From Actinomycetes bacterium (GTDB lineage: Bacteria > Actinomycetota > Acidimicrobiia > Acidimicrobiales > Ilumatobacteraceae), in contig JAIOPC010000004.1 in assembly GCA_021414085.1 (NCBI GenBank), positions 62,001-126,000 on the forward strand: a stretch of 64,000 nt of DNA, given 5' to 3'. Shown piece after piece: positions 4,067-29,634 of the stretch. The position numbers and the translations under genes were made by a program. The notes beneath the pieces were generated by a model, which saw only the letters and a program-made list of their open reading frames with translations, ran no database searches and had not been told where the DNA came from. Numbering within the stretch: position 1 is the stretch's first letter; every line of letters starts with the position of its first letter.

Positions 4067-5941
4067 CTATGCGCTGAGACTCGACTCCCTCGTCTCTACT
4101 GTCGAGTCTCCAGCGCTGCGCAGGGCATGTCGCGCACGTTTCTCTTCGTACATCGCCTCGTCGGCGGCGGCGAGCAGCGCGGTGCCGTCGTACCCAACGG
4201 CGTCTGTGTTGGCGACACCGATGCTCGCTGGGCAGACGACTTCGATGTTGGGCTCGATCAGGATCGGTCGCGACAACGCATGCTCGATCCGTTCGATCAG
4301 CTGATGCGAGTTGGCGTCATTTGGCTCGTAGACGATCACGAACTCGTCGCCGCCCAGCCGAGCGATGGTGTCGGCACCGCGGACCACCCGCAGCAACCGG
4401 TCGGCCGTTTCACACAACACCCGGTCGCCAACGTCGTGACCGTGGACGTCGTTCACGGTCTTGAAGCCGTCGAGGTCAAGGAACGCGAGAGCAAGCGGCC
4501 GTCCGGAGCGTTTGGTTCTTGCCAAGGCCGCGTCGAGGAGTTCGCTGAAGAGTCGGCGATTAGCTAGGCCGGTGAGCGAGTCACGCAACGCGAGCGCTGC
4601 CATGTTGTCCTGCAAGTTGCGCAACTCAGTCACGTCGCGGCTGACACCCTGCAGGCCATCGCGGATCGGTGAGGTTCGGGTCTCACCAACAACCGTTGAG
4701 CCGTCTGCGTGACGAAATCGGAAGTCGAAGCGGTCAAGGATCTGCTCTCCGTTCAACGCGCGCGCAATGGCCGTGCGGCCCACGTCATCGAGGATGTCCA
4801 TCATCCGAGAGAAGTCCTCGAGGAAGTACGAAGGCGGATAGCCGAGGATGTTCTCCACTGACGGGCTCATGTACTCGAAATGTGGCGTCGGTTGGGTCGT
4901 GAAGCGCCACACGACATCAGCGGACTTATCGGCGAGCTGGCGGAACCTGGTTTCGCTTTGGGCGAGCTCCATCTCAGCCACTTTGCGGCGGGTGACATCG
5001 CGACCGATGGACAGCACTTCCGGACCATCAACACCGGTGATGTAGCGATCCATCCACTCCAACCACTTTTCACCCGAGTCATGGCCCGCGACACGCGCAA
5101 CATGGTCGACCAGAATTGGGTTGTCGGGTCCCAGTATCGCTAGTTGGGAACGGAGACCGTCCTTCTCATCCTCAGATAGGAAGTCGTCCAGTCGACGGCC
5201 GACCGCTGCCTCCTGTGTGACTTCGTACTGCGCCGCCCATGCCGCGTTGCAGTACGTGATGACATGATCCGACATGCGGTAACGGTTAACGAGTTCGGGA
5301 AGCGCGTTGAGCACGGTCGCGCTGCGCTCAAGCGAGACTTGGTTGACAGCCACCTCACTAGTGAGTTTGCGCGAACGAGCGACCAAGCCGTGCAGCGTCA
5401 TTCCCATACCCGCGCAGCAGACGATGAGAACAGCGGTCGGCGCAACGCCACCAGTCGCAGGTGCAGAGTTGTGACCATGCGCCCCCAACCAGAGGACAAC
5501 CCCCGCTACTGCAGCGGCGATGAGTACAGCAGCCTGGTTCTCATAGATGGCCAACCACATCAGCGGCAGGACGGAGAGCGTGATGAACGGAGATCCGATG
5601 CCACTGCCTGTAGACGAAGCGAGTAGCAGGGCTCCGATGAGCAACAGGAACGGGGGCGCGAGCTGTGCTTGTCGCGGCACGCGGTGCCATGGCAGCACCG
5701 CGGACCCGGCGAGTGTGACGGCGACGAGAACCAAGCCGAACACAGCCATGTCAGGCTGGGTCCACGAGGCCGTTGGCACTGCAATTGCCATCGCAATGAT
5801 GGCGGTGGCCGCGAACGGCAGCGCACGCTGCAGTCGTCGATCGCCGATCAAGGGACCGTGCTCGGCCTCAACAGTGGGCGCGCCGCGAGGCGAGGTGGCC
5901 GTCGCCTTCACCCTGTCGCCGTTGTCAGCCAGATTCTTCAC
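4067..5941 (-). CDS. Membrane PAS-PAS-GGDEF diguanylate cyclase
   Basis: 624 aa. The N-terminal part (about residues 38-180) has several hydrophobic membrane helices, followed by two PAS-like regions (about 205-325 and 330-445) and a GGDEF domain (about 455-605). The active site reads RLGGDEFVIVY. Five residues before it is RGAD, an intact RxxD inhibitory site, so feedback-inhibited synthesis of c-di-GMP is expected. No EAL domain is present. The start is GTG at 5941. The PAS repeats suggest sensing of redox, light or a small ligand, but no cofactor residue can be assigned. A 10-bp inverted repeat lies within the last codons (4076-4110). Confidence 0.92.
   Translation of the reverse strand: MKNLADNGDRVKATATSPRGAPTVEAEHGPLIGDRRLQRALPFAATAIIAMAIAVPTASWTQPDMAVFGLVLVAVTLAGSAVLPWHRVPRQAQLAPPFLLLIGALLLASSTGSGIGSPFITLSVLPLMWLAIYENQAAVLIAAAVAGVVLWLGAHGHNSAPATGGVAPTAVLIVCCAGMGMTLHGLVARSRKLTSEVAVNQVSLERSATVLNALPELVNRYRMSDHVITYCNAAWAAQYEVTQEAAVGRRLDDFLSEDEKDGLRSQLAILGPDNPILVDHVARVAGHDSGEKWLEWMDRYITGVDGPEVLSIGRDVTRRKVAEMELAQSETRFRQLADKSADVVWRFTTQPTPHFEYMSPSVENILGYPPSYFLEDFSRMMDILDDVGRTAIARALNGEQILDRFDFRFRHADGSTVVGETRTSPIRDGLQGVSRDVTELRNLQDNMAALALRDSLTGLANRRLFSELLDAALARTKRSGRPLALAFLDLDGFKTVNDVHGHDVGDRVLCETADRLLRVVRGADTIARLGGDEFVIVYEPNDANSHQLIERIEHALSRPILIEPNIEVVCPASIGVANTDAVGYDGTALLAAADEAMYEEKRARHALRSAGDSTVETRESSLSA
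4076..4110 (-). repeat. Perfect 10-bp inverted repeat at the 3' end of the diguanylate cyclase gene
   Basis: GAGACTCGAC (4076-4085) and GTCGAGTCTC (4101-4110) are separated by 15 nt. The repeat lies inside the final coding codons and would form an mRNA hairpin just before the stop codon. No T-run follows on the minus strand, so a classical terminator is not supported. Confidence 0.5.
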
Positions 5942-8694: not shown

Positions 8695-9792
8695 TCACGA
8701 TTCGGTGATCGTGATGCTTTCGATGATGACCGGCGTTGTTGGCGCTTCGCTGGTGTTGGTCTCGTCGGCGGTGAGCGCGATGGCGTTGAGCGTCGTCTCG
8801 ATGCCTTCGGTGACCTCGCCGAACAGCGAGTAGTTCGGCGGCAGCGTGATTCCACGATTGCCGGTCACGATGAAGAACTGACTGCCGTTGGTGTCGGGGC
8901 CACTGTTGGCCATCACGATGGAACCGATCTTGTATTCACCGTCGGCAGGTAGTTCGTCGGCAAACTCGTAGCCGGGGCCACCGTTTCCGTTGCCGGCTGG
9001 ATCTCCGCATTGGGCGACGAAATCGAGCGGGATGCGATGGCAGTTGAGACCGTCGTAGAAGTGATAGCGGCTGAGCACCACGAAGTTGTTGACCGTCAGC
9101 GGCGCCTTCGCCGCATCGAGCGTGACGGTGAGTTCGCCCAAATTGGTGACGATGGTGGCCGTGTATGTCTTGGTCTCGTCGATGCACATCGGCGGCGCCT
9201 CTTCGAAGGCGGTCTCGCGTGCCGAAGAGCCGTCGGCTTCTGGGCACGGTGTCGGCGCCGGGACGGGTACAGGAGCCGGGGTGATGCTCACGACCTCGAT
9301 CACGAAGCGCAGCGAGTCGCCGGGCTTGATGATGTCGCCGGAGCCCGTCTCGCCGTACCCGAGCGACGCGGGGATATCGAGCTGACGGGTACCGCCAGCC
9401 TGGACGCCGACGAGGCCTTGATCCCAGCCTTGGATGACGTTGCCGGCGCCCAACACGAATGAATAGGGCTCGTCGGGATCTTGGTTGCTGTCGAACTCGG
9501 TGCCGCCGTCCAGCAGCGTGCCGACGTAATGCACAGCGAGCGTGTCGCCTACGACGGCAGCGTCGCCAGTGCCGACTTCCACATCAGTGATCACCAGATC
9601 GGCAACCGTGACCGGCTTTTTGTCGTCGCTGCTGAGCAGCGCGGTGATGCCGGCGATTGCGACAACCGTCGCCACCAGGACGCCAATCCAGACACCGCGC
9701 CGCTTGCGCTTGGTCTTGCGCGCCTGCTTGGCCATCTCTTGCAGTCGCAGCTGGCGGTTGGCCTTCTGTCGTTCACGTTTGGTGGTAGCCAC
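8695..9792 (-). CDS. Membrane-anchored FKBP-cyclophilin fusion peptidyl-prolyl isomerase
   Basis: 365 aa. A basic cytoplasmic N-terminus (KRERQKANRQLRLQ) precedes one membrane helix (about 34-54). An FKBP domain follows (about 65-170: VHYVGTLLDGG, FVLGAGNVIQGWDQGL, PASLGYG), then a Pro-rich linker and a cyclophilin domain (about 205-360: NNFVVLSRYHFYDGLNCHRI, NGSQFFIVTG, YSLFGEV). Both domains catalyse prolyl cis-trans isomerisation, so this is a two-domain exported foldase. The cyclophilin Arg (CHRI) and SQFF residues are kept. In FKBP the usual ITEFD strand appears as TEFDSN. The start is GTG at 9792. It is convergent with the S51-like gene. Confidence 0.9.
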   Translation of the reverse strand: MATTKRERQKANRQLRLQEMAKQARKTKRKRRGVWIGVLVATVVAIAGITALLSSDDKKPVTVADLVITDVEVGTGDAAVVGDTLAVHYVGTLLDGGTEFDSNQDPDEPYSFVLGAGNVIQGWDQGLVGVQAGGTRQLDIPASLGYGETGSGDIIKPGDSLRFVIEVVSITPAPVPVPAPTPCPEADGSSARETAFEEAPPMCIDETKTYTATIVTNLGELTVTLDAAKAPLTVNNFVVLSRYHFYDGLNCHRIPLDFVAQCGDPAGNGNGGPGYEFADELPADGEYKIGSIVMANSGPDTNGSQFFIVTGNRGITLPPNYSLFGEVTEGIETTLNAIALTADETNTSEAPTTPVIIESITITES

Positions 9793-9894: not shown

Positions 9895-11880
9895 ATGCTG
9901 AAAACGATGCGGCGAACGGAACACAGCATCGCTCGAGCGATCGTTGTCGCTGGTCTGCTGGCCAGCCTTGGTTACCTGTCGTGGCGCGCCCTGTACACGC
10001 TCGCCGGTACCGATCTGTGGTTGTCGGTTCCCGCAATCCTTGTCGAGATCGCTGGATTTGTTGGGAGTGCCCTGTTGGCCTGGGCACTCTGGCCGCATCC
10101 GGGGTCTGTCCCTGACGCGACGCCCAGCGACGAGCTGGTCGCTGATGTGTCACCGGTGGACGTGCTCGTGCGGGTTGCTCATCAGGGCGCTCACGAGTTG
10201 CGCGCCACCCTGATCGCGCTCCGTTCCGTAGCAGCCGTGCGGGAGGTCATCGTCGTCCACGGCGGATTCGCGGATGCGGTTGCAGCGGCCGGTACGTCGC
10301 GTGTGCTGCTGCTGGACGCGGGTGATGTGCCCACTGCTGACATCGTGACGCGGCTGGCGCGGGCGTTTGTCGACGAGCGCGTCGCGGTCGTGCAGGGCCT
10401 TGGCGTTTCGTTTGCGGAAGACTCGATCGAGCACGGCCCTCACGGACGTCACGACTTCACCTTTGAACGTGGTGCCCTGAACCCGGCACTTGGTTCACGC
10501 GGTTGCGCGATCTGGACCGGCAGTGGATCGTTGGTGTCTGTTGACGCGTTGCGCGAAGCAATAGCGCGTGGCGTTGTCGGCGACTCACCACTGGCGACGC
10601 AATGGGCTCTGTCGGCCGAGATGCTCGCGGCGGGATGGCGCATCGTTGCACCGGCCGATGTAGCCGTGGTTGGGCTGCGCGTTGAGTCAATCGAATCGGT
10701 TGTTCACGAGGATCGACGTGCCCGCGTGCGCGCCGCTCGGGCGTTGGTCCGGCGCTGCCGAGGCGGGTTCTCGTGGCGACAGCGAATGTCGATCTTGGCG
10801 TGGTGTGTGCGGCCACTCTCCGGACTGCGTAGGTCAGCGTTCATCGCTGTGCTGGTTCTCGCGCTGTACGCGGGGTCGGCACCGCTCGCCTTGCCAGTCG
10901 GGGCGTCGTTGTCGATAGTGCTTGCCGTGTGGTCGACCGCGTTGATCGCCACATCAGTGGGACTCGGTCTGCTCAGTGGATGGCGGCTGCGGCCTGGCGA
11001 TCGTGCTCGGTGGTCGTTGGTCTCACTGGAGCCGATACGAAACAGCATGGGTCTGGTTGTGGCGATGACGGCAGTGACCGTCGTGTTGCTGTTGCGCGGC
11101 ATTAGCGATCAGTTCACGCACACGTTGGGCCGCCTGCCACAAGACACGTTGATGGGGCTGATCATCGTTGCGTTGTGGACGCTTGCGATGTCGCTTGACC
11201 ATGTTCGTTTGCTGACTCCGCGCACGCGTCGGCGAGGCAGCATTCGAGTCTCTACGTTGCTGCCCGCGATCCTGGGTGACCGCTCGGCGAAGATCATCGA
11301 CCTCACCCCCAACGGTGCCGGCTTGCTGAGTCAAACAGCCAACGCCGTTGGCGAGCGTGTCTTGCTGGTGTCGACGATCACCACCACGTCGGGTATCAAT
11401 GAGCTGCAAGTGCCCTGCGTGGTGCACAGCGCGGTCGCAATCGACGGCAAGTGCTGGCGTATCGGCGTGAAGTTCAGCGACGCTGAGGACGGCGCCATCG
11501 ACGACAGCGTTGTGAATGCGCTCGTCGAGTACTGCACTGTCGAGCCAACGTGGGCGCGACTGGGCGTGATGCCCGCGACCTCGGTCACCGAGGCCCGCCG
11601 AATCAACTACGCGCGCGAATCACAAGACGACGAAGCGTTTATTGGCAAAGGCATGTTGTGCTTCTTGTCGATAGTTGCGTTGGCTGGTGCGGTTGCCAGC
11701 GCCGTCTCGCGCTTCGACGCAACGAAGCCGAACACGACATGGTTGGTGCCGGTGGTCGTTTCGTTGGCGATCGGAATTGCTGCCAGCCTGCTACTCGCGC
11801 TCATCACGGGATCTCAGGCGCTGAGGTCCGAGCCAGAGAACTCGTCGTCGTCTCTCTCGCCCGACTTGGCAATTAGGTAG
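9895..11880 (+). CDS. Cellulose-synthase-like membrane protein with degenerate glycosyltransferase and a PilZ domain
   Basis: 661 aa. Two N-terminal membrane helices, a region laid out like the GT2 domain of BcsA (about 84-290), further helices, a PilZ-like domain (about 445-545) and two C-terminal helices. The GT2 motifs are eroded: the DxD region reads LLLDAGDVP, the TED position reads VGDSP, and the QxxRW helix reads RRARVRAAR. The PilZ features persist: RGSIR (RxxxR) and DLTPNGAG (DxTxxG). It is therefore most likely a c-di-GMP-responsive membrane protein that no longer makes polysaccharide. Whether it works with another synthase is unknown. Its 3' end overlaps the convergent metallopeptidase gene by 67 bp. 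Confidence 0.7.
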   Translation: MLKTMRRTEHSIARAIVVAGLLASLGYLSWRALYTLAGTDLWLSVPAILVEIAGFVGSALLAWALWPHPGSVPDATPSDELVADVSPVDVLVRVAHQGAHELRATLIALRSVAAVREVIVVHGGFADAVAAAGTSRVLLLDAGDVPTADIVTRLARAFVDERVAVVQGLGVSFAEDSIEHGPHGRHDFTFERGALNPALGSRGCAIWTGSGSLVSVDALREAIARGVVGDSPLATQWALSAEMLAAGWRIVAPADVAVVGLRVESIESVVHEDRRARVRAARALVRRCRGGFSWRQRMSILAWCVRPLSGLRRSAFIAVLVLALYAGSAPLALPVGASLSIVLAVWSTALIATSVGLGLLSGWRLRPGDRARWSLVSLEPIRNSMGLVVAMTAVTVVLLLRGISDQFTHTLGRLPQDTLMGLIIVALWTLAMSLDHVRLLTPRTRRRGSIRVSTLLPAILGDRSAKIIDLTPNGAGLLSQTANAVGERVLLVSTITTTSGINELQVPCVVHSAVAIDGKCWRIGVKFSDAEDGAIDDSVVNALVEYCTVEPTWARLGVMPATSVTEARRINYARESQDDEAFIGKGMLCFLSIVALAGAVASAVSRFDATKPNTTWLVPVVVSLAIGIAASLLLALITGSQALRSEPENSSSSLSPDLAIR

Positions 11881-13032: not shown

Positions 13033-13275
13033 GTGGCAACACTTCGACTTTTCGCCTCCGCTCGCGAATCCGCGGGCACGGGTAGCGCGCAGTTCGAAGG
13101 TGCAACCGTGAGCGATGTGTTGGCCGCGGCAAGCGCGAGCTTCGGCCCGTCGTTCGTTGCAGTACTACCCAATTGCAAGGTGTGGGTGAATGGCGATCCC
13201 GCCGAGCCGACGACTGTTGTCGGAACTGCCGATGAGGTGGCGGTACTCCCGCCCGTGAGTGGAGGATCGCTATGA
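13033..13275 (+). CDS. MoaD/ThiS-like ubiquitin-fold sulfur carrier with Ser-Leu extension
   Basis: 80 aa. The length, the start VATLRLFASARESAG and the end VLPPVSGGSL fit the beta-grasp sulfur carriers used in molybdopterin, thiamine or cysteine synthesis. In working carriers the protein normally ends with Gly-Gly, which is adenylated and thiocarboxylated. Here two residues (Ser-Leu) follow the GG, so activation would need trimming, or the protein has another role. The stop overlaps the next start (ATGA). No MoaE or MoeB partner is nearby. The start is GTG at 13033, 6 nt after TAACCT. Confidence 0.8.
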   Translation: MATLRLFASARESAGTGSAQFEGATVSDVLAAASASFGPSFVAVLPNCKVWVNGDPAEPTTVVGTADEVAVLPPVSGGSL

Positions 13276-13778
13276 GCGCCAACGACCAGACAGAACACGG
13301 AGTCGACGCCGGCTCGCTCGCACTCGACGACCTGCGTGCCATGCGTGCCGAGTTGCAGCACCAGGACGACGCCGTCAGCTACGTGCGCCGGCTCGCGCAA
13401 GCACGGCTCGACTTCGTGCGCGCCGAGATGCGCAACCGCGCCGAGGGTTCCGACCGCGACATCAGCGACGAGATTCCCAACATCCTCGGTTCGCACCTAA
13501 CGGGTGGCGCGCCGCGGCCGCCGCGGCCGGCCGAAGATTTCAGCGGTCACCCGCTTGCGCTGCAGCTTGAGGTTCTCTGCGACGAGGCGTGCAGCACCGA
13601 CCTGCCCGCGATGAGTCACGAAGAATTGGGGGCGTATGCCAGCCGCCTGTACGAGTTCGAGCAACTGCGTTCGAACGAGCGCCGCGAATTGTTCGCCCGC
13701 ATCGACGCGCTGAGCGCCGAGCTAGTTCGTCGCTATCGCGACGGCGAGGCGAACGTCGACGGCCTGCTCGTCGACTGA
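13272..13778 (+). CDS. RsiG-like c-di-GMP-binding coiled-coil protein (putative anti-sigma factor)
   Basis: 168 aa, mostly helical and charged. Known RsiG proteins bind c-di-GMP through two copies of E-x3-S-x2-R-x3-Q-x3-D on antiparallel helices. The first helix here, DAVSYVRRLAQARLD, gives D-x3-S-x2-R-x3-Q-x3-D (E replaced by D). The second, EQLRSNERRELFARID, gives E-x3-S-x2-R-x3-F-x3-D (Q replaced by F). This supports membership of the RsiG family, which in Streptomyces holds sigma WhiG when loaded with c-di-GMP. No sigma gene is adjacent. It is coupled to the MoaD-like gene (ATGA overlap) and lies 6 bp before an HTH gene. Confidence 0.72.
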   Translation: MSANDQTEHGVDAGSLALDDLRAMRAELQHQDDAVSYVRRLAQARLDFVRAEMRNRAEGSDRDISDEIPNILGSHLTGGAPRPPRPAEDFSGHPLALQLEVLCDEACSTDLPAMSHEELGAYASRLYEFEQLRSNERRELFARIDALSAELVRRYRDGEANVDGLLVD

Positions 13779-13784
13779 CCCGTA

Positions 13785-14138
13785 ATGGCCATTCGCGGCG
13801 AGTTGGATAAGCGGCTAGCTGACGTCGGCGACTTCATACGCACACAACGCGAAGTCGCGCGCATGAGCGTGCGCCGCTTGGCCGAAGTCGCTGGCGTGAG
13901 TAATCCGTATCTGTCGCAAATCGAGCGCGGCTTGCGGAAGCCCTCGGCCGAGATCCTGCAACAGATTGCGAAGGCGCTAGAGATCAGTGCTGAGACCCTG
14001 TACGAGCGCGCCGGGTTCTTGGCCCCAGATGCGCAGGCTCGCGGTGTGCGCGCCGCAATTGCGGCCGATCCGCTGCTCACTCCCGAGCAGCAACAGGCGC
14101 TACTGAACGTGTACCAAAGCTTCGTCGGACAGCGATAA
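13785..14138 (+). CDS. XRE-family helix-turn-helix regulator
   Basis: 117 aa. RTQREVARMSVRRLAEVAG followed by VSNPYLSQIERGLRKPS is a clear Cro/C1-type HTH in the N-terminal half. The C-terminal part (DPLLTPEQQQALLNVYQSF) is a short helical tail also seen in actinobacterial relatives. It is a likely DNA-binding repressor. It follows the RsiG-like gene by 6 bp and is probably cotranscribed with it, so a link to c-di-GMP signalling is possible but unproven. Confidence 0.88.
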   Translation: MAIRGELDKRLADVGDFIRTQREVARMSVRRLAEVAGVSNPYLSQIERGLRKPSAEILQQIAKALEISAETLYERAGFLAPDAQARGVRAAIAADPLLTPEQQQALLNVYQSFVGQR

Positions 14139-14217: not shown

Positions 14218-15432
14218 GTGCAACGGGTCGCAGTGCTTTCGCTCCACACCTCGCCGCTGGCCCAACCGGGCTCGGGCGACAGTGGTGGCATGAATGTGTA
14301 CGTCCGCGAGTTGGTGTCGGCGCTCTCGCAGGCCGGTGTCGATTGCACGACGTACACACGTCGCACCAGCCGCGAGCAGGCCGAAGTTGTGCAGGTCGAG
14401 CCCGGGCACCGCGTCGTGCACGTGGAAGCTGGGCCGTTCGACCTCTCCAAGGAACAGTTGCCGGGCGTGCTGCAGGAGTTCGGCGATGTGGTGATGCACC
14501 ACATCAAGAACGATTCGCCGGCCGACGTGCTGCACGCCAACTATTTCCTCAGCGGGCTCGTTGCGCACCGGCTGAAGCACGAGCTCGATATTCCGTTCGT
14601 CAGCACCTTTCACACGCTTGCCCGAGTGAAGGCGGAAGGTGGCGACCTGGAACCGGAGTGGCGCGACCGCGCCGAACACGAGATCATCAGCTGTGCGGAT
14701 GCGATCCTGGTCAGCTGCACCGAAGAGGAACGTCAGTTCCGCCGCCTCTATGGCGACCCGCGGGGCCGCATCGAGATTGTTGCTCCTGGCGTCGAGCACG
14801 CGTTCTTCGCGCCCGGCGACCGCGGTGGCGCTCGCCGCGCGCTCGATCTGCCAGCGGATGTACCGGTGCTCTTGTTCGTCGGACGCATTCAGCCGCTGAA
14901 GGCACCCGACCTTGCGATCAAGGCGCTGGCGGGTCTGAATCGCAGCGATGCGTTGCTGTTGATCGTCGGTGGTGCCAGCGGGCAAGAGGGAGAGAGCGAA
15001 ATGGCTCGCCTGAATCTGCTGGTCGACGAACTGGGTCTTGCGGGCCAGGTTTGCTTCGTGGCACCGCAACCGCACCACATCCTCAGCACGTACTACCGCG
15101 CCGCCGACGCCGTCGTCGTGCCCAGTCGCAGCGAGAGCTTCGGCCTTGTCGCGCTTGAGGCGTCGGCGTGTGGCATTCCGGTTGTGGCGTCGGGCGTCGG
15201 CGGGCTGCTGACGCTGATTGATCACGGCGAGAACGGCTATCTGGTTCACGATCGCGACCCAGCGATGTTCTCGCACTACTTGCGCGAGATCATCGATCAT
15301 CCGGCGCACGCGGCAGCCCTCGGTGCGCGCGGCGCCGAGCGGGCGAAGGCGTACACGTGGGGCTTTGCAGCTGCCCGTCTGCGACGCACCTACAACGACC
15401 TCGCTGTACGCGAGTTGGTTGCCTGCGAGTGA
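14218..15432 (+). CDS. mshA: D-inositol-3-phosphate glycosyltransferase (MshA-like, GT4)
   Basis: 404 aa. The N-terminal GSGDSGGMNVYVRELV is the signature of MshA, which joins UDP-GlcNAc to inositol-3-phosphate as the first step of mycothiol synthesis. The C-lobe has FVGRIQPLKAPDLAIKAL and the nucleotide-binding motif SRSESFGLVALEASACGIPVV, typical of GT-B family 4. The following gene encodes a YbjN-domain protein, the same order as in mycobacteria, which supports the call. Start GTG at 14218. A different GT4 activity cannot be fully excluded without a tree. Confidence 0.88.
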   Translation: MQRVAVLSLHTSPLAQPGSGDSGGMNVYVRELVSALSQAGVDCTTYTRRTSREQAEVVQVEPGHRVVHVEAGPFDLSKEQLPGVLQEFGDVVMHHIKNDSPADVLHANYFLSGLVAHRLKHELDIPFVSTFHTLARVKAEGGDLEPEWRDRAEHEIISCADAILVSCTEEERQFRRLYGDPRGRIEIVAPGVEHAFFAPGDRGGARRALDLPADVPVLLFVGRIQPLKAPDLAIKALAGLNRSDALLLIVGGASGQEGESEMARLNLLVDELGLAGQVCFVAPQPHHILSTYYRAADAVVVPSRSESFGLVALEASACGIPVVASGVGGLLTLIDHGENGYLVHDRDPAMFSHYLREIIDHPAHAAALGARGAERAKAYTWGFAAARLRRTYNDLAVRELVACE

Positions 15433-27061: not shown

Positions 27062-28594
27062 TCAGCGAAACGAGATGCGGTCGCGGCCTGTGCGCTTCGC
27101 CACTTGCAGCGCCGTGACTGCTTCGGTCAGCAAGTGTTCGCGGTTGGCCGAATCGCCGCCGACGGTGACACCGATCGATGCGGTCAGCCGCAAACCGGCC
27201 GGAACGCCGTGCCACACACGTTGCGCGATCAAGGTGCGTACCCGCTCGAACACCATCAGCGCGTCACCCGGCGAGGTGTTGCCCAGCAGCATCACGAACT
27301 CGTCGCCGCCGAGGCGAGCAACCGAATCGCCGCGCCGGCACACGCGCTCGAGCAGCACCGCCACCTCTTGCAGCACGGTGTCGCCTTGCATGTAGCCGTA
27401 TTCATCGTTGATGTGCTTGAAGCCGTCGAGGTCGATGACGCCGATGCACACGGGTGCGTTGTGATCGAGCACGTTCGGCAGCACCTTGTTGAGATAGCGC
27501 CGGTTGGGTAACCCTGTCAGTGGGTCGCTCTCGCTGATCGCCTCGACGCGCCGATGCTCGACTCCGAGGCGCACGTGTTCCCAACGCGCCGCTCGTTCGT
27601 CATACAACTGCTGCCCAGCTTCGCGGAGCTGACGCTCCATCACAATGCGTGCCTCTTCGAGCCGACCGATGCTCCACAGCGCTTCGATCTCGGTCTTGAG
27701 GAGTGGTGCGAGGAAGTCGTAGTAGCCGATCTCGCGGGCAAGGTCGAGTGTCTTGTCGATCAACTCGAGCACGTTTGGATCTCTTGTCGAGCCCCATCGC
27801 GCGATGGCTTCGGCTGCCATCGCGACGATCTGCTCCTCACGTATCCCGTGTTCGAGCGTCATGCGCCGAGCAAGGCGCGCATCGTCGAGCGCAGACTCGA
27901 AGTGCCCGATCTCGGCGAGCATCATCGCTCGGTGCGCTAGAGCTCCGCCCATCGCCAACAACTCGACATCGGCTACCCGTTCGAGAGCAGCCGTCGCCGC
28001 GTAGAGGCCAGCGTGAATGAGGCGCTGGCGCTCGTTGGGATCTTGCTCGCGCTGCGCGGCGTAGTGGTAGGCGCTGGCCATGCTGCCGTACGTGTACTGC
28101 CGGTCGCCGTCGTTGTCGGCCAGATGAAGGGCGCGGTCGTAAAGATCGAGGGCTGCCTTCACGAAGCCGCAGGTCGCGTAGGTAGCCGCCATGTTGTGGA
28201 CGACCTGATAATGGCGCGACTCGTTGGGCAGTTGATCGAGTGTGTACATGGCCTCGGCAAGCACGTTGGATGCCTCGGCCAACCGATCCGACCGCATGTG
28301 ATGATCCACGATGAGGCCGAGCGCGTCGGCGAGTTCGGCAAGAAAGCCTTCAGTTCGCGCCCGCTTGGCGACGATCTCTGCCAATGCAGCCGCTTCCTCG
28401 TGGCGTTCGACCGCCAACATGCAGCATGCCTGTCGGATCTGCAGGTCGAGTTCCTTGCGAAGATCGTCTTCCACCTCGGCGGCCTTGCAGAACAACTCGG
28501 CCGCGAGCTCAAACGAGCCGGACTGGCGCGCATGGATGGCGTTTTGTTCCAGCGTCAGTGACTGGTCGAGTTCGACAGCTCGCAGATCAGCCAC
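27062..28594 (-). CDS. TPR-like sensor with C-terminal GGDEF diguanylate cyclase
   Basis: 510 aa. The N-terminal two thirds (about 20-340) is helical and TPR-like (AIHARQSGSFELAAELFCKA, AALDLYDRALHLADN, LARRMTLEHGI). The C-terminal GGDEF domain reads DPLTGLPNRRYLNKVLP, IDLDGFKHINDEYG and RLGGDEFVMLL, with RRGD five residues before it as an intact inhibitory site. No membrane helix is seen, so it is a cytoplasmic enzyme. The start is set at GTG 28594 to avoid overlap with hemB; ATG 28645 is in frame but lies inside the hemB coding region. It may respond to binding of a partner by its TPR part. Confidence 0.9.
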   Translation of the reverse strand: MADLRAVELDQSLTLEQNAIHARQSGSFELAAELFCKAAEVEDDLRKELDLQIRQACCMLAVERHEEAAALAEIVAKRARTEGFLAELADALGLIVDHHMRSDRLAEASNVLAEAMYTLDQLPNESRHYQVVHNMAATYATCGFVKAALDLYDRALHLADNDGDRQYTYGSMASAYHYAAQREQDPNERQRLIHAGLYAATAALERVADVELLAMGGALAHRAMMLAEIGHFESALDDARLARRMTLEHGIREEQIVAMAAEAIARWGSTRDPNVLELIDKTLDLAREIGYYDFLAPLLKTEIEALWSIGRLEEARIVMERQLREAGQQLYDERAARWEHVRLGVEHRRVEAISESDPLTGLPNRRYLNKVLPNVLDHNAPVCIGVIDLDGFKHINDEYGYMQGDTVLQEVAVLLERVCRRGDSVARLGGDEFVMLLGNTSPGDALMVFERVRTLIAQRVWHGVPAGLRLTASIGVTVGGDSANREHLLTEAVTALQVAKRTGRDRISFR

Positions 28595-28618
28595 GGCGGA
28601 ATACCCCGGCGGGTTGAA

Positions 28619-28624
28619 TACGAT
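28619..28624 (+). promoter_or_regulatory. -10-like TACGAT for hemB
   Basis: TACGAT lies 8 nt before the GTG start 28633 in the gap between hemB and the divergent GGDEF gene; no Shine-Dalgarno site is present. Confidence 0.35.
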
Positions 28625-28632
28625 GCCGTGCC

Positions 28633-29634
28633 GTGACCGGTTCATTTCCCGCCGCCCGCCCGAGGCGGCTGCGCAGTTCGGCCGCTATGCGCGATTTGGT
28701 CGCGGAGACCTCGCTGGATGTTCGCCAATTGGTGGCACCGCTGTTTGTGCGCGAAGGCATTAGCGAGCCGCAACCAATCGTGTCGTTGCCGGGTGTTGTG
28801 CAGCACACGCGTGCATCGGTGCGCGAGGAAGTACGGGCGCTCGCCGACCTGGGCGTGCGTTCGGTGATCCTCTTCGGAGTCCCAGCCATCAAGGACGGTA
28901 TCGGCTCGCAAGCCTTCGACCCTGAGGGAATCGTGCAGCACACGTTGCGCGATTTGACCGCTGACCTGGGCGATTCTGTGGTCCTGATGGCCGATCTATG
29001 TGTCGACGAATACACCGATCACGGCCATTGCGGGGTGCTCGACGGCCCTGCGGGCGACCCGAACACGTCGGTCGACAACGACGCCACGCTGGAGGTTTAC
29101 GCCCGCATCGCTGTCGCCCAAGCCGATGCTGGTGCCCAGGTGGTGGCGCCCAGCGGGATGATGGATGGCCAGGTCGGTGCCATCCGCGCCGCGCTGGATG
29201 GGGCCGGGCACCAGAACGTGGCGATCCTTGCCTATTCGGCCAAGTATGCGAGTGGCCTGTACGGCCCGTTCCGCGATGCGGTCGATTGCGCGATCGTTGG
29301 TGGCGGTAATCGCAAGGCGTATCAGCAGGATTGGCGCAATGCCCGCGAGGCAATCGCCGAGGTGCAGGCCGATATCGCGCAAGGCGCCGACATGGTGATG
29401 GTCAAGCCGGCGCTTCCGTACCTCGACATCATCGCCGCGGTGAAGGCGGCCGTGAACGTGCCGGTCGCCGCGTATCACGTCAGCGGCGAGTACGCGATGC
29501 TCAAGGCCGCTTCCGCTAACGGCTGGATCGATCACGATGCCGTAGCGCTGGAGAGCCTGACCGCCATCCGCCGCGCCGGCGCCGACATCATCCTCACCTA
29601 CCTAGCCCGCTGGTTCGCCGAACTCCGAGCCTGA
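28633..29634 (+). CDS. hemB: Delta-aminolevulinic acid dehydratase (porphobilinogen synthase)
   Basis: 333 aa. The N-terminal PRRLRSSAAMRDLVAETSLD and QLVAPLFVREGI match HemB. LMADLCVDEYTDHGHCGVL holds the metal-binding Cys residues, and MVKPALPYLDIIAAVKA contains the second Schiff-base Lys. It joins two aminolevulinate molecules into porphobilinogen. Start GTG at 28633 fits family N-termini. It sits about 5.4 kb from hemCD, separated by two beta-rich protein genes and a GGDEF gene, so it is regulated apart from the Rex operon. Confidence 0.96.
   Translation: MTGSFPAARPRRLRSSAAMRDLVAETSLDVRQLVAPLFVREGISEPQPIVSLPGVVQHTRASVREEVRALADLGVRSVILFGVPAIKDGIGSQAFDPEGIVQHTLRDLTADLGDSVVLMADLCVDEYTDHGHCGVLDGPAGDPNTSVDNDATLEVYARIAVAQADAGAQVVAPSGMMDGQVGAIRAALDGAGHQNVAILAYSAKYASGLYGPFRDAVDCAIVGGGNRKAYQQDWRNAREAIAEVQADIAQGADMVMVKPALPYLDIIAAVKAAVNVPVAAYHVSGEYAMLKAASANGWIDHDAVALESLTAIRRAGADIILTYLARWFAELRA

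Follow-up and report, generated by a model that had tools for sequence, protein, structure and literature searches.

A twin-motif RsiG in an Ilumatobacteraceae genome and the predicted target genes of its WhiG-type sigma factor

The rsiG locus and the motifs of its product

The DNA analysed here (the window) is a stretch of 64,000 nt from contig JAIOPC010000004.1 (positions 62,001 to 126,000), which belongs to an Ilumatobacteraceae genome of 3.2 Mb that is 97% complete. On the plus strand of the window, a MoaD/ThiS-like gene with a GTG start (13033..13275; PF02597, E=4.1e-11) overlaps by 4 nt the gene rsiG (13272..13778), which codes for a predicted c-di-GMP-dependent anti-sigma factor; the ATG of rsiG and the moaD-like stop codon share the letters ATGA. 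An XRE-type HTH gene (13785..14138, plus strand; PF01381, E=1.8e-13) starts 6 nt past the rsiG stop, and a conserved neighbour follows, an MshA-like glycosyltransferase gene (14218..15432, plus strand) whose product scores 388.5 bits against TIGR03449, under the cut-off of 462.5. This order of MoaD-like, RsiG and HTH genes had been proposed in the original prediction, together with the absence of a WhiG-type sigma gene next to rsiG, and both points stand, the ORF and Pfam reading having revealed no such gene adjoining it. A comparison of 19 rsiG loci places mshA downstream, on the same strand, in all 19 and proC in 18; moaD is found upstream in 17, an adjacency that is not constant, and an HTH gene was detected beside rsiG in just nine. 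The place of rsiG has therefore been largely kept, which argues against a recent transfer. Upstream of rsiG, the minus strand of the window (8695-9792) codes for a double prolyl isomerase, in which FKBP and cyclophilin domains (PF00254 and PF00160) are joined in one polypeptide; in six of the 19 loci, rsiG has a match to this protein upstream.

The rsiG ORF starts with ATG and codes for 168 amino acids. Its identity as RsiG has been confirmed by several methods. The protein matches PF22802 in two stretches (E=1.3e-25; 89.3 bits, cut-off 27) and, in a phmmer search, RsiG of S. venezuelae (6pfj_T) at E=1.8e-17 over RsiG residues 12-166. The AlphaFold model, for which an alignment of 43 RsiG sequences served as input, has a mean pLDDT of 89.6 and two long helices (residues 18-57 and 116-156), and the four Foldseek matches in the PDB at E<=0.001 all belong to S. 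venezuelae RsiG (6pfv/6pfj, TM 0.66-0.75); as modelled, the protein has the antiparallel coiled-coil fold of RsiG. Relatives with 64-77% identity are encoded at three metagenome-assembled loci, two from Ilumatobacteraceae and one from an uncultured Acidimicrobiaceae, and the genome search returned a single RsiG gene in the source genome (two stretches, one ORF). It is thus well supported that the ORF at 13272-13778 is a bona fide, ordinary and full-length twin-motif RsiG.

Reading of the sequence and of the 43-RsiG alignment places c-di-GMP motif 1 (D32 S36 R39 Q43 D47) at 13365..13412 and motif 2 (E130 S134 R137 F141 D145) at 13659..13706, both on the plus strand. The spacing that had been noticed originally, D32-x3-S36-x2-R39-x3-Q43-x3-D47 and E130-x3-S134-x2-R137-x3-F141-x3-D145, is correct, both helices presenting S, R and D in the x3-x2-x3-x3 arrangement. 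Consensus residues occupy eight of the ten motif positions, the exceptions being D32 (for E) and F141 (for Q); when E in first place and Q or H in fourth place are strictly demanded, two of ten positions miss them, motif 1 reading D and Q and motif 2 E and F. Besides the window's protein, the alignment contains the 30 top-scoring Pfam matches and sequences from 12 other loci, a non-random pick from the 175 genomes of the order (Acidimicrobiales) with RsiG; seven more loci only duplicated genes that were present already. Of these 43 proteins, 36 have E and seven have D at position 32, and all seven carriers of D belong to the Ilumatobacteraceae (7 of the 12 family members read). The Q of motif 1 is kept in 42 and replaced by H in one. 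At position 141, 24 have H, 19 have F and none has Q; F is present in all 12 family RsiGs read, the window's included. The remaining motif positions (S, R and D of motif 1; E, S, R and D of motif 2) are invariant and account for seven of the 11 invariant columns of the alignment. As far as the alignment goes, D32 and F141 are lineage features common to relatives. The Q of motif 1 is described as often replaced by H, which is capable of the same guanine stacking (PMC8325347); in this order, it is the Q position of motif 2 that varies. F can stack too, and binding is probably retained with it. Because the substitutions are common to relatives and keep acidic and aromatic side chains, loss of binding is not indicated, and neither is a degenerate, non-binding motif, since relatives carry the same substitutions.

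A WhiG-type sigma factor encoded elsewhere in the genome

Four sigma-70 region 3 matches are present in the genome, two of them RpoD-like, one FliA-like and one WhiG-type, the last at C7:74946-75686 and unlinked to rsiG. The original prediction had hinted at a missing sigma partner and had called for a genome search for a WhiG homologue; the presence of this WhiG-type gene contradicts the hint, and an orphan RsiG is ruled out by it. The best PDB match of the protein is WhiG of S. venezuelae (6pfv, E=6.4e-74; best FliA, 1.8e-47), and it scores 253.9 bits against the FliA/WhiG subfamily model TIGR02479, above the cut-off of 189.6. The NCBI WhiG equivalog model NF004935 is its top-scoring model, nonetheless with 283.5 bits and under the cut-off of 343, and the protein is therefore named WhiG-type here and not certified as WhiG. 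In both solved RsiG–WhiG complexes, a K, a G and an R of WhiG touch c-di-GMP (PMC8325347). All three are kept in the WhiG-type protein, and among relatives (29 best matches read) K/G/R is found in 27 and K/S/R in two. The FliA-like sigma factor, with D/G/Q at these positions, is encoded at one end of a C13 flagellar cluster, the genes of which were named by eye. It is a divergent protein of 371 aa (L003:973-2088, plus strand) in which a stretch rich in Asn, Ser and Gly lies close to the start, and its gene adjoins one that by eye is EAL-like.

The two partners also occur together across the order. RsiG was found in 175 of 298 genomes and a strong WhiG, that is, one with a best E<=1e-55, in 165. 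Both are present in 156 genomes, RsiG only in 19, WhiG only in nine and neither in 114 (one alone in 28), which gives a Fisher p=4e-50, uncorrected for kinship or incomplete genomes. Eleven genomes whose best WhiG E lies between 1e-55 and 1e-40 were placed among those without WhiG, and four of them fall among the 19 with RsiG only; G246, at 5.4e-41, alters no count. We infer that this RsiG binds both WhiG and c-di-GMP.

A candidate promoter element and the genes behind it

The source genome contains T4P-type (type IV pilus) ATPases besides the flagellar cluster named by eye, and nine GGDEF matches were found in it. The usual spacer of WhiG-type promoters is 15 nt. Section 14 of PMC8325347 gives TAAA/GCCGATAA as the consensus for flagellar and WhiG sigma factors. 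Searches for this textbook form with 14-16 nt between its halves returned no exact match, and with N15 and two mismatches it was not enriched, with 65 matches vs 85 in the control. No promoter consensus was found in passages of PMC13293333, from a literature search on Actinoplanes. A different element, TCAAG-N16-CCGATA, was picked post hoc from T4P upstream regions. It precedes the T4P operon in four of five genomes inspected (G000, G102, G006 and G211) and was looked for without success at that place in the fifth, G134; its CCGATA half is the core of the -10 GCCGATAA given in section 14 of PMC8325347. Allowing N15 or N16, the source genome has eight sites vs one for the reversed control pattern, and the 12 family genomes have 58 vs 10. 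In the five larger family genomes (G000, G102, G211, G006 and G134) the count is 40 vs 4, or 36 vs 4 once the four T4P sites from which the motif was derived are set aside, and 34 of the 40 sites have N16. Two sets of ten genomes played no part in choosing the motif: in genomes from other families with both RsiG and WhiG, 24 sites were counted vs 4 controls, and in genomes without RsiG and WhiG 12 vs 11, no excess. Other family genomes with both proteins have little or no excess (G064, 0 vs 0; G161, G186 and G288, 1 vs 1 each; G251, 4 vs 1), and G270, which has RsiG and no WhiG-type match at E<=1e-15, has seven vs one. The clustered TAAA-type matches on G251:C3 were dropped, no pilus or c-di-GMP gene being visible there by eye.

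The 64-kb window contains no exact TCAAG-N(15,16)-CCGATA. A site before the rsiG operon was also rejected, as none of three matches from a looser scan of the window is close to rsiG. Upstream of rsiG, the glycosyltransferase-like gene at 9895-11880 was searched for a TCAAG-type site with no good match, and genes matching it are preceded by TCAAG-N16-CCGATA in G006 and G211 (L038:3566, plus strand; L043:6763, minus strand). Two GGDEF genes on the minus strand of the window are possible sources of c-di-GMP. The one at 4067..5941 (GGDEF match at C4:66130-66591) has no good WhiG-type site upstream, the best match having three mismatches. Before the other, at 27062..28645 (GGDEF match at C4:89077-89529), the only site is a weak one with two mismatches (28898-28925, minus strand), which was dropped because it lies within a divergent neighbouring ORF.

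In the five larger family genomes, the element often stands close before a start codon. For 21 of the 40 sites, an ORF at least 100 aa long has its start codon beginning at base 6-11 past the element, 18 of these 21 at base 8 or 9; of 20,000 positions drawn at random from these loci, 8.8% are so placed (p=1.6e-12). Several of the 21 ORFs are only 115-173 aa long and are perhaps not real genes. This spacing is what leaderless transcripts would look like. Elsewhere it was found in 2 of 11 sites read in the negative genomes, 6 of 19 in the positive genomes outside the family and 2 of 17 in the other seven family genomes; the reading covered all 40 sites of the five larger genomes, 17 of the 18 in the remaining seven of the family, 11 of the 12 in the negative genomes and 19 of the 24 in the outside positive ones. 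None of six sites read in G270 is at leaderless distance.

Among the genes behind the eight sites of the source genome are the T4P operon (62 nt from its site), two GGDEF-EAL genes, which have the exact element 8-9 nt before them, and an M15-peptidase gene. The other sites lead to two genes without an informative family, one of which codes for a protein that resembles, by eye, one behind a site in G102, to an unassigned stretch and to a pilT-like gene at 252 nt; this last site falls in an opposite-strand ORF that reads like a prepilin peptidase, and its conservation may therefore be due to coding only. Two of eight sites lying within 100 nt before nine GGDEF genes would have p=5.5e-7 if sites were random. 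Of the nine GGDEF genes, eight were looked at: the exact element precedes two of them and a near match two others, and the last four lack both, although one of these four loci, L088, ends short of the gene start. Pfam was run on 23 hand-picked proteins whose genes adjoin the 40 sites, and on one next to a TAAAG-type site; GGDEF was found in seven of the 23, five of which also have EAL. In relatives, the element is linked to GGDEF or GGDEF-EAL proteins (G211, G006 and G134), to an HD-domain protein and a SpoIID-like one, to NlpC/P60-LysM, cadherin-like and fibronectin-type proteins, to a response regulator and a sensor-kinase-like protein, to a sugar transferase and a UDP-sugar dehydrogenase, and, at a distance of 512 nt, to a carboxypeptidase-regulatory-domain protein. 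Two proteins of about 700 aa from G000 and G102 (L237:386-2545, plus strand; L243:1428-3452, minus strand) have no informative Pfam family and start alike by eye, and both are encoded behind a TCAAG-type site at leaderless distance.

The proposed switch, its rivals and known systems

The best explanation, and probably the right one, is that a twin-motif RsiG exerts a c-di-GMP-gated hold on WhiG, and that WhiG reads the pilus, GGDEF-EAL and surface promoters. At high c-di-GMP, two molecules of the nucleotide would settle on the two motif helices and RsiG would hold the unlinked WhiG-type sigma factor; when c-di-GMP falls, WhiG would be released, and the free sigma factor would transcribe from TCAAG-N16-CCGATA before the T4P operon, GGDEF/EAL genes, and surface and cell-wall genes. 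Since WhiG is proposed to transcribe GGDEF/EAL genes, the switch would be at the same time a c-di-GMP sensor and a feedback on c-di-GMP turnover. By analogy with Rubrobacter, its likeliest role would be to place pili, the surface and c-di-GMP turnover under the control of c-di-GMP, suggesting that the sporulation switch of Streptomyces is used here for surface control.

Alternatively, the switch could be real and the element read by another sigma factor, in which case the pilus and c-di-GMP-enzyme target set would be wrong. This is a minor but appreciable chance, given that the motif was chosen post hoc, that the canonical consensus is unenriched, that some family genomes with WhiG have no excess and that G270 has seven sites and no WhiG match; it is countered by the ten-genome sets (12 vs 11 without RsiG and WhiG, 24 vs 4 with both in other families) and by the match of CCGATA to the published -10 core. 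It is possible that FliA is the reader in the source genome. However, G102 and G211 carry the element and have WhiG as their sole FliA/WhiG-type match at E<=1e-15 (among the 9 of 13 and 9 of 15 candidates scored), and the 20 kb flagellar stretch of the source genome (L095) contains no TCAAG-type site; WhiG is therefore favoured, and we infer that it reads these elements. The same two observations speak against the reading in which RsiG targets the FliA-like sigma factor instead of WhiG and controls flagella, as G102 and G211 have both RsiG and WhiG and, among the candidates scored, no second match of this type at E<=1e-15. Such a target would suit the position of the divergent FliA-like gene at the end of the C13 flagellar cluster (genes by eye), but the K and R contacts are D and Q in its product, and we consider this very improbable. 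More plausible, and still unlikely, is that RsiG and WhiG bind each other while c-di-GMP dependence has been reduced or lost through the D and F substitutions, leaving an anti-sigma factor that is constitutive or responds to another signal. In the solved complexes, the motif residues corresponding to positions 32 and 141 touch c-di-GMP (PMC8325347, section 10), and the side chain of F is incapable of hydrogen-bonding. On the other hand, the eight other motif residues fit the consensus, position 141 is H or F only in the 43 RsiGs of the order and its assigned role is guanine stacking, and the K/G/R contacts of WhiG are kept.

The c-di-GMP-gated switch that we prefer resembles the RsiG–WhiG system of S. 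venezuelae in having a twin-motif, single-chain RsiG (36% identity in the structural alignment) and a WhiG partner with identical K/G/R contacts. It differs in D32 and F141, which replace E and Q, and in its predicted targets, which are pili, c-di-GMP enzymes and surface proteins and not sporulation genes. The novelty originally seen in an RsiG outside Streptomyces does not hold, as RsiG has been described as scattered over the Actinobacteria, with a twin-motif form in three of four Acidimicrobiales species (PMC8325347), and the present protein is for this reason a new member of a known form. It shares with those RsiGs the order and the twin-motif form; the portion of PMC8325347 used here describes neither targets nor a motif 2 F for them, and a literature search on WhiG and type IV pili in Acidimicrobiia gave nothing beyond that paper. 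What is added here is a predicted target set for the twin-motif RsiG–WhiG switch, and this is the part that deserves experiment. In 2021, RsiG–WhiG was described as the sole known sigma/anti-sigma pair targeted by c-di-GMP, with a role established in Streptomyces and suggested in Rubrobacter (PMC8325347). Tentatively, and with about even chances of being right, the twin-motif switch of the Acidimicrobiia may run a largely leaderless set of T4P, adhesin, cell-wall-enzyme and c-di-GMP-turnover genes through TCAAG-N16-CCGATA, pilus and surface control with feedback being ancestral in both RsiG forms and Streptomyces sporulation a later use. A target set predicted for a twin-motif member in the Acidimicrobiia brings the question of the ancestral role within reach of experiment.

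The second form is that of Rubrobacter radiotolerans, in which RsiG has one motif and dimerises, as seen in the (RsiG)2-(c-di-GMP)2-WhiG structures (PDB 7lq2-7lq4); here, a single chain carries both. In that bacterium, as here, the predicted targets are type IV pili and DGC/PDE genes (PMC8325347, section 14), and the -35 is TCAA here vs TAAA there. The two halves of the present element appear to be separated by one base more than the usual 15. A TAAAG-N14-GCCGATA site has also been observed in the source genome, on C11, before a LysM-NlpC/P60 gene (L098:3734-4616, minus strand) whose start codon is 9 nt past the site, and in G102 a LysM-NlpC/P60 gene stands behind a TCAAG-type site.
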